From Bacteroidota bacterium (lineage in GTDB: Bacteria; Bacteroidota; Bacteroidia; B-17B0; Aurantibacillaceae): a stretch of DNA of 64,000 nt. The stretch spans positions 1-64,000 of the forward strand of contig JAAFIL010000017.1 in the NCBI GenBank assembly GCA_013297775.1, written 5' to 3'. The position numbers were made by a program, and so were the translations under genes. Below are positions 2,002-7,290 of this stretch, in pieces (positions within the stretch are counted from its first letter, which is position 1; each line of letters opens with the position of its first letter). Below the pieces are notes generated by a model that was given only the letters and a program-made list of their open reading frames with translations, searched no databases and was not told where the DNA came from.

Positions 2002-5000
2002 TTAATACCCCAACACCGGCCCTAACCACTTTTGAATTTTATCAAAATCCTCGCCTTTACGTTGGGCATAATCGCTTACTTGCTCTTTTGTAATTTTCCC
2101 CACACCAAAGTAGTGGCTTTGCGGGTGCGCTAAATATAAGCCGCTCACAGCCGCCGTAGGAATCATAGCTAAACTTTCGGTTAAAGTAATGCCCGTATGT
2201 TTTTCTACATCTAGTAATTTCCAGATCGTGAGTTTTTCTAAATGGTCGGGTTGTGCAGGGTAACCCGGTGCCGGTCGAATGCCTGCATATTCTTCTTTTA
2301 TCAAATCTTCATTCTTTAAATTCTCATCTTTGGCATATCCCCATGTTTTGGTGCGTACTTCTTTATGCAAATATTCGGCTAAGGCTTCGGCAAGCCGGTC
2401 GGCTAAGGCTTTTAGCATAATGGCACTGTAATCATCGTGTGCACTTTCAAAACGCGCCACGTGTTCATCAATGCCAAAACCCGTACTGCACGCAAAAGCA
2501 CCTATATAATCCCACTCCGCTTTTTGATTTACAAATTTAGGACGAACAAAATCGGCTAAAGCTACATTGCTTTGCCCTGTTGGTTTTTTAGTGTTCATGC
2601 GTATGCTACGAAACGTTGCTTCGACCGATCTAACCGATAAACTTTCTGTTTCTTCTAAACTATACACTTCAATGTCGTCATCGTTTACCTGATTAGCGGG
2701 AAACAATCCTACAACAGCTTTTGCGCTTAACCACTTTTCGGAAATAATTTTTTGCAACATGGCTTGGGCATCCGCAAATAATTTTTTGGCTTCTGTGCCG
2801 CGTTCTTTATCTTCTAAAATTTTTGGGTAAGATCCTTTCATTTCCCAACTAATAAAAAAAGGAGTCCAATCTATATATTCTACAAGTGAAGATAAATCAA
2901 TCGCATCAAAAAGTGTTACACCAAGTTGATTAGGTTTAACAATGGTTGTGTCATTCCAATCTATTTTAAATTTATTGGATCGTGCTTCGGCCAACGAAAT
3001 AAATTTATTTTGAGCCTGCGCATTTTTATTTTGTTCGCGCACACGCTCGTAATCTGCATTCACTTCTAAAACAAATTTGGCTTTTAATTCTTTGCTAATT
3101 AAATTACTTACTACTGGGATAGATTTGCTGGCATCGTTTACATGCACTACTGGATGCGAATAATGCGGGGCTACCTTAACCGCGGTGTGTACTTTACTCG
3201 TAGTCGCTCCTCCAATTAGTAATGGAATGTTCATTTTTAAACGCTCCATTTCTTTAGCCACATCTACCATCTCATCAAGCGATGGTGTAATTAATCCACT
3301 CAACCCAATCACATCTACATTGTGTTTTCTCGCCTCTTCCAAAATTTTTTCTTTCGGAATCATCACGCCTAAATCAATAATCTCGTAATTATTGCAGGCC
3401 ATTACCACGCCGACAATATTTTTTCCAATATCGTGTACATCGCCTTTCACGGTTGCTAACAATACTTTTCCGGCCGAGGTGCTTACGGTGCCCGATTTTT
3501 CTGCTTCTAAATACGGTTGTAAATATGCTACGGCTTTTTTCATAACGCGTGCACTTTTTACAACCTGCGGTAAAAACATTTTGCCTTGTCCAAATAAATC
3601 GCCTACCACATTCATTCCATCCATCAACGGGCCTTCAATAATATGCAATGTTTTTTCATAATGGCTGCGACATTCTTCTACATCAGCATCAATATAATCG
3701 GTAATACCTTTTACCAACGAATGGGTTAAACGTGCTTGCACAGTGCCATTGCGCCACTCTTCGTTTTTTTCTTCTTTTACTTTTCCTTTGTTTTTAAGGC
3801 TTTCGGCTTTTTCAATGAGCCGCTCCGTCGAATCGTCTCTTCGATTTAATAAAACATCTTCAATTCTTTCGAGTAAATCTTTTTCGATATCATCATACAC
3901 CACCAATTGCGACGGGTTAACAATGCCCATGTCCATGCCACTTTTTACAGCGTGGTATAAAAAAGCGGAGTGAATAGCCTCGCGCACATGGTCGTTGCCC
4001 CTAAACGAGAAACTAACATTGCTAACGCCACCACTAATTTTAGCGTGAGGTAAGTTTTCTTTAATCCATTTGGTAGCATTAAAAAAATCGAGAGCATTTA
4101 ACCGATGCTCGTCCATGCCCGTAGCTACTGGAAAAATATTGGGATCAAAAATAATATCTTGTGGCGGAAATTTTACCACGTTTACTAAAACATCGTAAGC
4201 GCGTTGGCAAATATCAATTCGACGTTGTAAGGTATCTGCTTGTCCAGCTTCATCAAACGCCATTACAATAACTGCGGCACCATAACTTTTTACAATAGTG
4301 GCTTGCTCTATAAATTTAGCCTCGCCTTCTTTCAAAGAAATGGAATTAACGATGCCTTTACCTTGAACACATTTTAAACCAGCTTCAATAACATGAAACT
4401 TACTGCTATCAATCATGATGGGCACGCGTGCAATATCGGGTTCGGCAGCAATTAAATTTAAAAAAGTCGTCATTGCTTTTTCAGCATCTAACATCCCTTC
4501 GTCCATGTTTACATCTATCACCTGCGCTCCACCTTCTACTTGCTCGCGGGCAACAGCCAGGGCTTCTTCGTAACGTTCTTCAATAATTAGTTTTGCAAAC
4601 TTACGGCTACCCGTAACGTTGGTGCGCTCGCCAACATTCATAAAATTACTTTCGGGGCGAAGCGTAACGGGTTCTAAACCGCTGAGGTGCATCAGCGCAT
4701 TCGGGTTATTTTTTTTACGTGGTTTAAAATTTTTCGAGAGTTCGGCAATTCTGCGAATGTGAGCTGGCGTTGTGCCACAGCAACCACCAACAATATTTAA
4801 AAATCCTGCTTTTAAAAACTCTTCGATTTGATGTCCCATCTCGTGCGCATCTTGGTCGTACTCTCCAAATTGATTGGGCAAACCGGCATTCGGATAAGCA
4901 CTCACATAAAAATCAGATTTGTTGGCTAGTTCTTCTAAGTAGGGTCGCATATCTTTAGCACCCAAAGCACAATTTAGGCCAACACTCAACAAATCTACAT

Positions 5001-5703
5001 GCGAAACCGAGTTTAAAAATGCTTCGGTAGTTTGTCCCGAAAGGGTTCGTCCACTTGCATCGGTAATGGTACCGCTTACCATAACAGGCATCTTAATATT
5101 TTGTGCTTTACACACATTTTGTATGGCCATTAAGGCGGCTTTGGCATTAAGCGTATCAAAAATAGTTTCGATTAATAATAAATCAACGCCGCCATCTAGT
5201 AAGCCTTTTACTTGTTCTGTGTAAGCCTCTACCATCTCGTTCCAGCTAACGGCACGGTAACCAGGGTTATTCACATCGGGCGAAATGGATAAAGTACGAT
5301 TGGTGGGACCCATTGCTCCGGCTACAAACCTAGGTTGCATGGGCGTTTTAGCGGTGTACTTATCCGCCGCTTTTCGCGCACATTTTGCAGCAGCTACGTT
5401 AAGGTCGTAAACAATATGCTGCATATCGTAATCGGCCATGGCAATGCTAGTACCACTAAAGCTATTGGTTTCAATTATATCGGCGCCTGCTTCTAAATAG
5501 TGTTCGTGAATTTCTTCAATAATATCAGGACGGGTGATGCACAATAAATCGTTATTGCCCTTCACATCCTTATGAAAATTTTTAAACGGCTCGCCTCTAA
5601 AATCTTCTTCGGTTAATTTATAGTTTTGAATTAAAGAACCCATTGCACCATCAATTACCAAGATGCGATTTTCGAGCTCGGTGTAAATATTTGCTTTTCC
5701 CAT
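2002..5703 (-). CDS. metH: Cobalamin-dependent methionine synthase
   Basis: MetH transfers a methyl group from 5-methyltetrahydrofolate through methylcobalamin to homocysteine, the last step of methionine synthesis. The protein has 1233 residues and all four modules: a homocysteine domain with zinc ligands C245 (GLNCALG) and C308/C309 ([11 protein letters not shown]), a pterin-binding domain (about 350-620, starting at [11 protein letters not shown]), a cobalamin domain with the DxHxxG motif ([10 protein letters not shown], His near 755), and a reactivation domain ending with [13 protein letters not shown] chose ATG at 5703 rather than the in-frame TTG at 5712, because TTG lies inside the U-tract of the riboswitch terminator and family members start near this Met. 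Expression is expected to be controlled by the SAM riboswitch directly upstream. Confidence 0.97.
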
Positions 5704-5710
5704 AGATGTC

Positions 5711-5746
5711 AAAAAAAATCCCTTCTGTTTTTAGTCAGAAGGGATT
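5711..5746 (-). terminator. Riboswitch expression-platform terminator before metH
   Basis: On the minus strand an 11-bp perfect stem (arms at 5736-5746 and 5717-5727, AATCCCTTCTG / CAGAAGGGATT) is followed by eight U residues (5711-5718). The U-tract ends only 7 nt before the metH ATG. A terminator between a leader and its gene, rather than after a gene, signals transcription attenuation by the upstream aptamer. Confidence 0.85.
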
Positions 5747-5784
5747 AGATATTTTTAAAATGTTATAACTAATGTTTGTACTGA

Positions 5785-5913
5785 CTTATTTGCCAAAGCA
5801 ATGCTTTGTCACGATTTACCACCTTCTTTTTTAGGTTAGAAACTAAAAAGTAACGAACCTTAAAAGGGTTGGGAAGACTTCAACGGGCGTGTCCCTCTGT
5901 CTTTCTGAATAAG
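5785..5913 (-). promoter_or_regulatory. SAM-I (S-box) type riboswitch aptamer
   Basis: Reading on the minus strand, the leader starts CTTATT, continues with AGAGGGACACGCCC, GTTGAAG and CCCAACC, and closes with AATAAG. The outer CTTATT (5908-5913) and AATAAG (5785-5790) form helix P1. GAGGGA, GCCC, TGAA and CAACC are the conserved core blocks of the S-box aptamer. The following arms (AGGTT...AACCT and CAAAGC...GCTTTG) fit P3 and P4. Together with the terminator before metH, this predicts that high S-adenosylmethionine switches metH off. It is recognised by motif reading only; a covariance-model search with RF00162 was not possible. Confidence 0.8.
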
Positions 5914-5945
5914 ATATAAAGAACGGATAACAAAAGTACAGTATA

Positions 5946-7208
5946 TTATGGGATAAACCAAATCTGTTTATTCGTATAACTCAATAAGGTTTTTTGTCGC
6001 GATAAAACATCAAAACCAATTAGCCCATCTAGGTTAATTTTATATCCTGCATTCAAGTGAGAAATAGTACTAAACGTGGTGTTGCACTTTTTAAACGTTA
6101 GCGTGCCTAATTGAAGCCGATTAATTTTCCCTTTTTTTACAAGCCGTGTGGCATTATCGGCACCTATTAACGTTTCGGTTTTGATAGCGGATACATGGGG
6201 CTTTACAATTGAAAATAACGAATCGCTTAACAAGTTACTTTCGGCACCACAGTCTATTGCTAAATGGACATCTATATCGCCTATTTTTCCTTTCACACAG
6301 GCGAGGTGCGCATTTAGTTCGAGTGGTAAAATACGCATCGCTTTTGAGTTTGTAGTTTCGTTGACATACATTAAACTATGTGCTGGTTTAAGAAGCGTAA
6401 GGGTTTTGTTGGGATAATCGAATAACAAATCAAACGTTTTGTAAACTTCGTATCCAATTAAGCCATAAATAGGGGTCTTTAATTCTTTTTCTAAATGGCT
6501 AAGATCTATGCTTAAAACAGGTTGATGATTTAACTGCACACCATAAAAGTCAAACGTTTCGAGCTGAACGATGTCTAAATTTTGAATGCTGCCATTTACT
6601 CCTTTTGGCACGTCGGCTTGAATGCGTTGCCCTGCGCTTTCTTTACTTTTAAAGTAATGCTTATTTAAAATAAGTTTGGGTGCCCCGTTATCTACTATAA
6701 ACAATCGCTTTTCGCCATTTACAACCGCTTCCACACCTATTAAACGACCTACTTTTTGAAATGGAATTTTTATAACATTAGCATCAGGAAGTTGAATGGT
6801 AGATGCTGAGTCGAGGGTTTTCACTTCTATTTTAAATAACTCCATTTCTTTTAACGCTTCATTGGCATCAAATACAAACCTTGCTGTTTTTTTACCCAAC
6901 TTATCATACATTACTTCGTAAATCAATTCTAGGTTAGTGTTGAGTTTAGCGCTCATTAACTGGTAGCTACTAACGCTAGTAGTTGCTTGCGTTAGAAGAG
7001 CCGAAACAATGCGCTTGGCCAATGCCCCTTCTTTTCCCGAAAAGGTAAAATCATTGGCATACATAGATTCTATAGTGCCTATATTTTTTTCGTTGAAGGC
7101 TTTAAAAATAAGAGCTACTTTGCGTTCGCAGAGCATTTGGTTTTGAGAAAAAGTAACGCTCACCCATAAACTGAACGCTACTAATAAAAAGAAGGATTTA
7201 AAAAACAT
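5946..7208 (-). CDS. Secreted retropepsin-like aspartic protease family protein (two domains)
   Basis: A signal peptide (MFFKSFFLLVAFSLWVSVTFS) is followed by an N-terminal region of about 130 residues and two pepsin-like half domains in one chain. The first has FIVDNGAPKLIL and the second LAIDCGAESNLL, each the D-x-G-A signature of clan AA proteases, followed by hydrophobic-hydrophobic-Gly strands (YGLIGYEVY, DGLIGFDVL). Canonical sites read D-T/S-G; here the second residue is Asn and Cys, so activity is uncertain. I prefer ATG at 7208, which begins the signal peptide, over the GTG at 7235. It lies 32 bp upstream of the metH riboswitch on the same strand, but the riboswitch suggests metH is controlled separately. 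The substrate is unknown. Confidence 0.75.
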   Translation of the reverse strand: MFFKSFFLLVAFSLWVSVTFSQNQMLCERKVALIFKAFNEKNIGTIESMYANDFTFSGKEGALAKRIVSALLTQATTSVSSYQLMSAKLNTNLELIYEVMYDKLGKKTARFVFDANEALKEMELFKIEVKTLDSASTIQLPDANVIKIPFQKVGRLIGVEAVVNGEKRLFIVDNGAPKLILNKHYFKSKESAGQRIQADVPKGVNGSIQNLDIVQLETFDFYGVQLNHQPVLSIDLSHLEKELKTPIYGLIGYEVYKTFDLLFDYPNKTLTLLKPAHSLMYVNETTNSKAMRILPLELNAHLACVKGKIGDIDVHLAIDCGAESNLLSDSLFSIVKPHVSAIKTETLIGADNATRLVKKGKINRLQLGTLTFKKCNTTFSTISHLNAGYKINLDGLIGFDVLSRQKTLLSYTNKQIWFIP

Positions 7209-7290
7209 AAAAGAATAATTTAGTGGTTGAAGCACTAACCCGCCGCAAAGACTTTTATTTTTTACAGCGGGTTAGCACCTTTTTTAATGA

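Follow-up and report, generated by a model that had tools for sequence, protein, structure and literature searches.

Terminator-type riboswitches of the SAM-I class (S-box, RF00162) combine an aptamer with an antiterminator and a terminator that are coupled to it through P1, upstream of a methionine gene; the S-box leaders of Bacillus subtilis are platforms of this type. Another leader element, boxA, has the core consensus GYUCUUU. As defined by Barrick and Breaker (2007; PMC2258182), dual platforms carry a terminator near enough to the open reading frame (ORF) to act on both transcription termination and translation initiation, with a cut-off of 10 nt and with the ribosome-binding site (RBS) inside the 3′ side of the terminator. 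Bacteroidota mRNAs naturally lack Shine-Dalgarno (SD) sequences (PMC6847099), and SD pairing is reportedly not used in this phylum (PMC9976891).

Here, we analyzed a metH locus within a 64-kb window, i.e., the whole stretch of DNA studied, from a Bacteroidota bacterium. The locus shares with S-box platforms the aptamer, the P1-coupled antiterminator and terminator, and the downstream methionine gene. In contrast, its terminator abuts the start codon in an SD-free phylum, one P3 base pair is flipped in the family, and a boxA-like motif lies 5′ of the aptamer. As in the dual platforms, the terminator is close enough to the ORF for both steps, but no SD-type RBS is expected at this locus and the distance is 13 nt (compare PMC2258182). 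Support for a SAM-I transcription attenuator at this locus is good; its platform is unusually compact, and the compactness is conserved across the family. The riboswitch itself is ordinary, and platforms with a terminator near the start were classified already in 2007 (PMC2258182); the present survey shows in addition that a family belonging to an SD-free phylum retains the packing ahead of three kinds of downstream gene, providing a natural test of the extent to which a terminator can also act as a start-site leader. The promoter, the antiterminator, the conservation of spacing, and the boxA-like motif are additions to the original prediction for this locus.

For comparison, all 65 SAM-aptamer matches of the window's genus were taken in. 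The family beyond it contributed 19 automatic loci plus 40 of the 46 remaining non-genus matches; 28 of these 40 were included because their rank or the length of their aptamer pointed to the metH type, and the family counts therefore lean to that type. The sample outside the family (n = 70) comprised the 30 best-scoring loci and 40 picked for family spread among the matches listed, with a single family (f17) contributing 20 of the 70. Within the window's family, a metH, methyltransferase, or AlbA frame was found in 73 loci; 69 were kept and four were dropped for want of a usable terminator or start (L006, L208, L212, and L217, the last two with an imperfect hairpin by eye). The 55 other family loci include at least six of the metH type, namely these four, L218 (contig end), and L222 (missed by the frame pattern).

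A single Rfam match above gathering was present in the window: RF00162 at 5915-5783 on the minus strand, with a score of 62.8 bits (gathering 44.4), an E-value of 3.3e-12, and coverage of model positions 1-108 of 108. This full-length match bears out the S-box aptamer claimed in the original prediction, which had placed it within 5711-5913; the 5′ limit shifts outward, as the match begins at 5915. Both the match and folding define P1, formed by CUUAUU (5908-5913) and AAUAAG (5785-5790). The downstream gene is metH, as had been proposed, and encodes a cobalamin-dependent methionine synthase of 1233 aa (2002-5703, minus strand; TIGR02082, 1748 bits; five Pfam domains); a methionine/SAM gene thus follows the aptamer, as in other SAM-I members. 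The base pair next to the core, which belongs to P3 according to the Rfam structure line, has both of its sides exchanged together in the window's family: it is C-G (CCAACC...GGTGG) in 64 of 69 metH-type family loci, compared with GCAACC...GGTGC in 42 of the 70 outside loci and A with C in two, the 3′ side having been missed by the script in the other 26.

On the minus strand, the locus runs in the order promoter (5962-5931), GTTCTTTA, aptamer, spacer, terminator with U-tract, seven bases, and the metH ATG (5703-5701). The promoter has the form TTTG-N20-TACTTTTG, which we take to be of the Bacteroidota type by its consensus, and obtained a score of 10/10. Its -33 element TTTG (5959-5962) falls within the final codons of an upstream ORF (5946-7235) on the same strand as metH, which overlaps the promoter, and its -7 element TACTTTTG (5931-5938) was assigned from sequence and promoter scoring. 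Scores of at least 9 were obtained for 51 of 122 distinct family upstream regions compared with 3.0% of shuffles. The transcript is predicted to begin close to the boxA-like GTTCTTTA (5917-5924).

The intrinsic terminator detected by scanning and folding (5746-5717, minus strand; 11 pairs, 8-nt loop, -15.7 kcal/mol) is followed by a U-run. A terminator scan of 601 bases returned two terminator-like sites, both of them this one hairpin read on either strand, whereas shuffled sequences gave 0.3 on average. The likeness of the hairpin at 5717-5746 to a plus-strand terminator (AGATATTTTT tail) is probably a by-product of its symmetry, since metH and the upstream ORF both lie on the minus strand. 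The original prediction had described a perfect 11-bp stem with eight U residues ending 7 nt before the ATG: the 11 pairs, the T-run at 5718-5711, and the 7-nt gap were all recovered, but the tail is not wholly free U, as two of the eight pair in the stem, leaving six unpaired U and 13 nt from stem to AUG. It was also right that an in-frame TTG within the U-tract (5712-5710) misleads start prediction, since the ORF lister chooses this codon. The ATG is the likely start of metH, because the corresponding TTG of the relative L032 runs into an in-frame TAA ahead of the ATG. In 363,209 bases of the window's genome, covering the window and 20 stretches and used to gauge chance, we counted 15 strong hairpin-plus-U sites on both strands (at least eight pairs with G-U allowed, at least four G-C, U-run of at least six) and 234 ORFs of at least 120 aa, a crude set from which only same-strand overlaps were removed; the metH hairpin was the only such site no more than 20 nt upstream of a candidate start. 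The terminator-metH arrangement is confirmed as real.

Folding and comparison identified an antiterminator that overlaps both P1 and the terminator. In RNA ending at the terminator 5′ arm, the unconstrained fold comprises two nested helices on the minus strand: helix 1 pairs AGUCAG (5781-5786) with CUGACU (5733-5738), the latter overlapping the terminator 5′ arm and loop, and helix 2 pairs AUUAG (5769-5773) with CUAAU (5744-5748), the latter overlapping the terminator foot. The P1 3′ strand overlaps the antiterminator. For this nascent RNA, the antiterminator fold reaches -33.5 kcal/mol compared with -31.0 kcal/mol when P1 is forced, a gap that ligand binding could reverse. Once the 3′ arm is included, P1 plus terminator becomes the minimum at -43.4 kcal/mol, versus -37.3 kcal/mol for the antiterminator; hence the decision must precede completion of the 3′ arm, the terminator is the end state, and the ON state must be kinetic given that the complete terminator is about 6 kcal/mol more stable.

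Comparison across the family supports these helices. The strands of helix 1 were anchored by position in 66 of 69 family loci, representing 63 distinct platforms. Its variable position was paired in 63/63 (G-C 32, A-U 17, G-U 14) against a mean of 54.3 and a maximum of 60 in 2000 shuffles, and its total pairing was reached by none of the 2000, bearing in mind that shuffles and Fisher tests alike disregard the relatedness of family loci. The other four columns, paired in 56, 58, 58, and 60 of 63, showed no excess over the best shuffles, and in five loci the helix 1 pairs form poorly or only in another register. As the terminator 3′ arm pairs with the same arm as helix 1, three strands are tied together. 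Helix 2, located by a longest-match search in 67 of 69 loci, has been swapped as a block in some lineages (ATTAGT/ACTAAT, TATGA/TCATA, AGATTT/AAATCT) and is reduced to three pairs in L038 and L061. The P1-linked, mutually exclusive antiterminator and terminator of SAM-I riboswitches are thus present by sequence, folding, and covariation.

Taken together, the locus is very probably a SAM-OFF transcription attenuator of metH, in which we infer both the ligand and the OFF logic; the basis in sequence and computation comprises the aptamer, the terminator, the conserved and covarying antiterminator, the downstream metH, and the conserved tight spacing. Judging from the promoter, RNA polymerase would start near 5925. 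When SAM is scarce, the P1 3′ strand and the sequence that follows it would pair with the terminator 5′ arm, permitting read-through into metH. When SAM is bound, P1 would be held and the antiterminator lost, such that the 11-bp hairpin would form and transcription would stop a few nucleotides before the AUG.

Judging from predicted starts, the tight placement of the terminator against the start is kept in most of the relatives examined. Among the 55 family metH loci, the U-tract lies 3-150 nt from the AUG and within 18 nt in 45, with 13-15 nt from stem to AUG in 25; the remaining ten have 27-150 nt from U-tract to AUG, so tight spacing is not essential. When all downstream genes of the 69 family terminator loci are considered (metH 55, class I methyltransferase 12, AlbA_2 2), the distance is 18 nt or less in 54, compared with three of 29 terminator-type loci outside the family (Fisher p = 3e-10, relatedness ignored), which have a median of 80 nt. 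Starts outside the family were set by script: the three short cases (L187, L188, L255) look wrong, and some long spacings (e.g., L266, 328 nt) may rest on wrong starts too. Lineage and gene are confounded in this comparison, since among the outside loci a terminator was seen with metH in L271 (182 nt) alone; eight other outside metH loci, in which the script detected no terminator, do not count among the 29 (L181, L184, L185, L240, L242, L244, L264, L265). The U-tract is fused to the ATG, with zero bases between, in L045 and L054 (AlbA_2) and in L198 (methyltransferase). Within the same genus, a PLP-dependent sulfhydrylase-like gene (named by eye; L003-L005) has its terminator 53-93 nt before the start.

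The original prediction had reasoned that there was no room for a normal leader after the terminator and that read-through and initiation may be linked. The first argument does not stand in that form, because Bacteroidota mRNAs naturally lack SD sequences (PMC6847099), so that 13 nt of unpaired, mostly-U RNA can serve. Close packing might be tolerated in such a phylum, where SD-free initiation would need an unpaired stretch and the U-tract may therefore serve as a start-site leader. Coupling of read-through to initiation is plausible, as part of the predicted hairpin falls within the initiation region (-20..-1). When the RNA is antiterminated, neither the 3′ arm nor the U-tract is held in the hairpin, whereas in the terminated state positions from -14 upstream are covered by it. 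Only a modest effect on initiation is predicted, given that the computed mean pairing of -20..-1 is 0.52 with the antiterminator versus 0.62 with P1 plus terminator.

Beyond terminating transcription, the hairpin might refold on read-through transcripts and block the adjacent AUG, which would amount to control of both steps. We entertain this tentatively and would not call it probable. It accords with the stem ending 13 nt before the AUG in the window and within 10 nt in 13 of 69 family loci, with the three loci where U-tract and ATG are fused, with a full-length minimum free energy fold that includes the hairpin, and with the tendency of -20..+20 to be unpaired in F. johnsoniae (PMC6847099); such a class has moreover been defined (PMC2258182). 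However, the window lies just beyond the 10-nt cut-off of that class (its stem ends 13 nt and its U-tract 7 nt before the ATG), only six of 55 metH loci fall within it, and pairing of -20..-1 differs little between the two states. The terminator 3′ arm, AGAAGGG, where that class has its RBS, is purine-rich, in a phylum reported to be SD-free (PMC6847099 and PMC9976891).

The boxA-like motif was unexpected and is the part of this locus most deserving of experiment. GTTCTTTA at 5924-5917 (minus strand) fits the GYUCUUU core, and once similar leaders were collapsed to 51, no 7-mer was more frequent than GTTCTTT (21/51; shuffle maximum 7). Of 122 distinct family leaders, 72 contain G[CT]TCTTT within the 45 nt before the aptamer (shuffle mean 1.8, maximum 6), as do 38 of 67 distinct outside leaders (shuffle mean 1.0, maximum 4), or 20 of 49 when the over-sampled f17 is set aside; reversed or reverse-complement forms of the motif occur in none of the same SAM leaders. 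The exact GYTCTTT is present in 12 and absent in 14 of the 26 outside families sampled. Among the metH-type family loci, 67 of 69 have GTTCTTT with its first base 7-13 nt before the aptamer, and it is present in 7 of the 55 others, some of these seven being metH-type loci missed by the frame pattern. Since control leaders also contain G[CT]TCTTT (TPP 3/30, cobalamin 5/30, with a few partial matches clipped by the aptamer edge), the motif is not confined to SAM leaders. The bearers were L360, L361, and L352 for TPP and L380, L388, L392, L398, and L405 for cobalamin.

A strict tie of the motif to terminator platforms was considered and rejected: outside the family, it occurs with 20 of 27 such platforms versus 26 of 43 others, and the family case (G[CT]TCTT[TA] in 68 of 70 terminator loci versus 8 of 54 others) reflects few related leader types. 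Pairing of GTTCTTT with the aptamer AAAGAA or with the terminator 3′ arm was likewise set aside, as inspection by eye gave a few weak and seemingly unconserved pairs. The f17 leaders (L165-L178, L180, L182, L183, L190, L193, L194) carry the motif in 20/20 cases and an intrinsic terminator by script in 1/20; Rho-dependent or translational control of these leaders is possible.

What the motif does can be read in two ways. If GTTCTTTA is a boxA, it would be a binding site for NusB/S10, which would escort the elongation complex along the untranslated leader, whether against Rho or as a folding aid, thereby adding to the attenuator. Its enrichment in SAM leaders of the phylum, with none in reversed or reverse-complement form and about one to two in shuffles, together with its rank as top 7-mer, is consistent with such a role, and the genome encodes Rho and a NusB-like protein, but the NusB match (83.1 bits) is below the cut-off of 88.35 and the exact GYTCTTT is missing from more than half of the other families (14/26). 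The rrn leaders bear on this point in both directions. Outside the genus, where 9 of 28 chosen genomes gave a 16S match, GTTCTTTGA was found in rrn leaders of five families (f8, f18, f20, f37, f39), and two of three f5 genomes had GTTCATTAA or GTTCATTGA, i.e., GTTCATT(G/A)A; in f4, the leader was not long enough to judge. By eye, five of six f5 SAM leaders contain GTTCA, so the SAM motif there follows the rrn form. Within the window's genus, however, nine genomes had a 16S match, and their conserved rrn element is GTTCATTGA (eight) or GTACATTGA (one), not GTTCTTTA, though one of them, G024, carries GTTCTTTGA as well, at -399 in its rrn leader; no 16S was matched in the assembly that contains the window. 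As the genus element differs from the SAM-leader form, identity with boxA is a matter of resemblance, and we consider it somewhat unlikely. The genus rrn leaders (L325-L336) also contain strong TTTG-N19/20-TAnnTTTG promoters, several in tandem pairs, with the conserved GTTCATTGA upstream of 16S.

Alternatively, GTTCTTTA may be a promoter or initially transcribed element with no role in elongation, a reading that we likewise regard as rather doubtful. The mostly set distance to the -7 box speaks for it and against boxA: in the metH type, the G of TTTG stands 7 nt before the motif in 45 of 67 loci, placing the motif mostly 6 nt after TTTG, and by eye the distance is 5-6 nt in f3, f8, f12, and f20 loci. 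In contrast, f15, f16, and f17 loci show no TAnnTTTG at that distance (by eye), and TTTG-N3-10-GTTCTTT is not enriched in the genome, with 90 matches versus 116 for the reversed pattern, which led us to reject a general promoter role for GTTCTTT.

The boxA reading can be extended to a model in which Bacteroidota SAM riboswitches are Nus-coupled: a 5′ boxA would load NusB/S10 ahead of the aptamer and the modified complex would make the decision, and in the window's family this would be fused to initiation, with the U-tract as an SD-free landing site and termination, refolding, and ribosome loading competing in one 40-nt stretch. We think this combination improbable. Were the motif to bind NusB/S10, Nus complexes would gain a new setting in metabolite riboswitches, and termination assays performed in vitro on such leaders would be missing a component unless Nus factors were added. 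The boxA of rrn, suhB, and other mRNAs (Baniulyte et al., 2017; PMC5725501) resembles the window motif in having the core in an untranslated leader, and differs in that the window motif precedes a metabolite riboswitch; neither 'riboswitch' nor 'Bacteroidetes' appears in the main text of that paper. A search of the open-licence literature found no paper on boxA together with a SAM riboswitch, which is weak evidence of newness. Of two further papers, on riboswitches in RNA-seq or on combined control (PMC12121620 among them), neither had a bearing on this locus.

Other genes follow the riboswitch in some relatives. An AlbA_2 gene lies between riboswitch and metH in L045/L066 and L054/L072, starting at the U-tract with metH farther downstream behind repeats. 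This gene comprises SLFN_AlbA_2 and HATPase_c_4 domains (Pfam on L045) and is followed by tandem TTCATCGGACAT repeats before metH; it looks like an insertion that captured the start site. The class I methyltransferase gene, which immediately follows the terminator in 12 of the 69 loci (L043, L198, L200, L207, L219, and others), belongs to Methyltransf_11 (Pfam on L043) and contains the motif ..RVDNYVKYRPHYP.

The genome's second SAM riboswitch (G000:C41, L002/L278; L278:7533-7649) has no terminator by script. A 38-codon ORF ending MCCCCCCMLS begins 13 nt past its aptamer, followed by a 75-aa ORF without a Pfam match and then by O-acetylhomoserine sulfhydrylase (TIGR01326 above cut-off); a MetX-like protein (best NCBIfam matches below cut-offs) and a homoserine-dehydrogenase-like ORF (by eye) are also downstream. 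Among the matches listed in a literature search for poly-cysteine leaders, none concerned Bacteroidota SAM leaders. In 41 of the 55 family loci outside the 69, an ORF with at least four Cys starts 3-14 nt after the aptamer, ahead of sulfhydrylase or metX-like genes. All 41 are distinct and contain a Cys run with frequent Met (..MCCCCCMC stop). From these sequences, the short Cys/Met ORF is likely a leader-peptide attenuator under the SAM aptamer; 39 of the 41 encode Cys five codons ahead of the stop (TGT 26, TGC 13).
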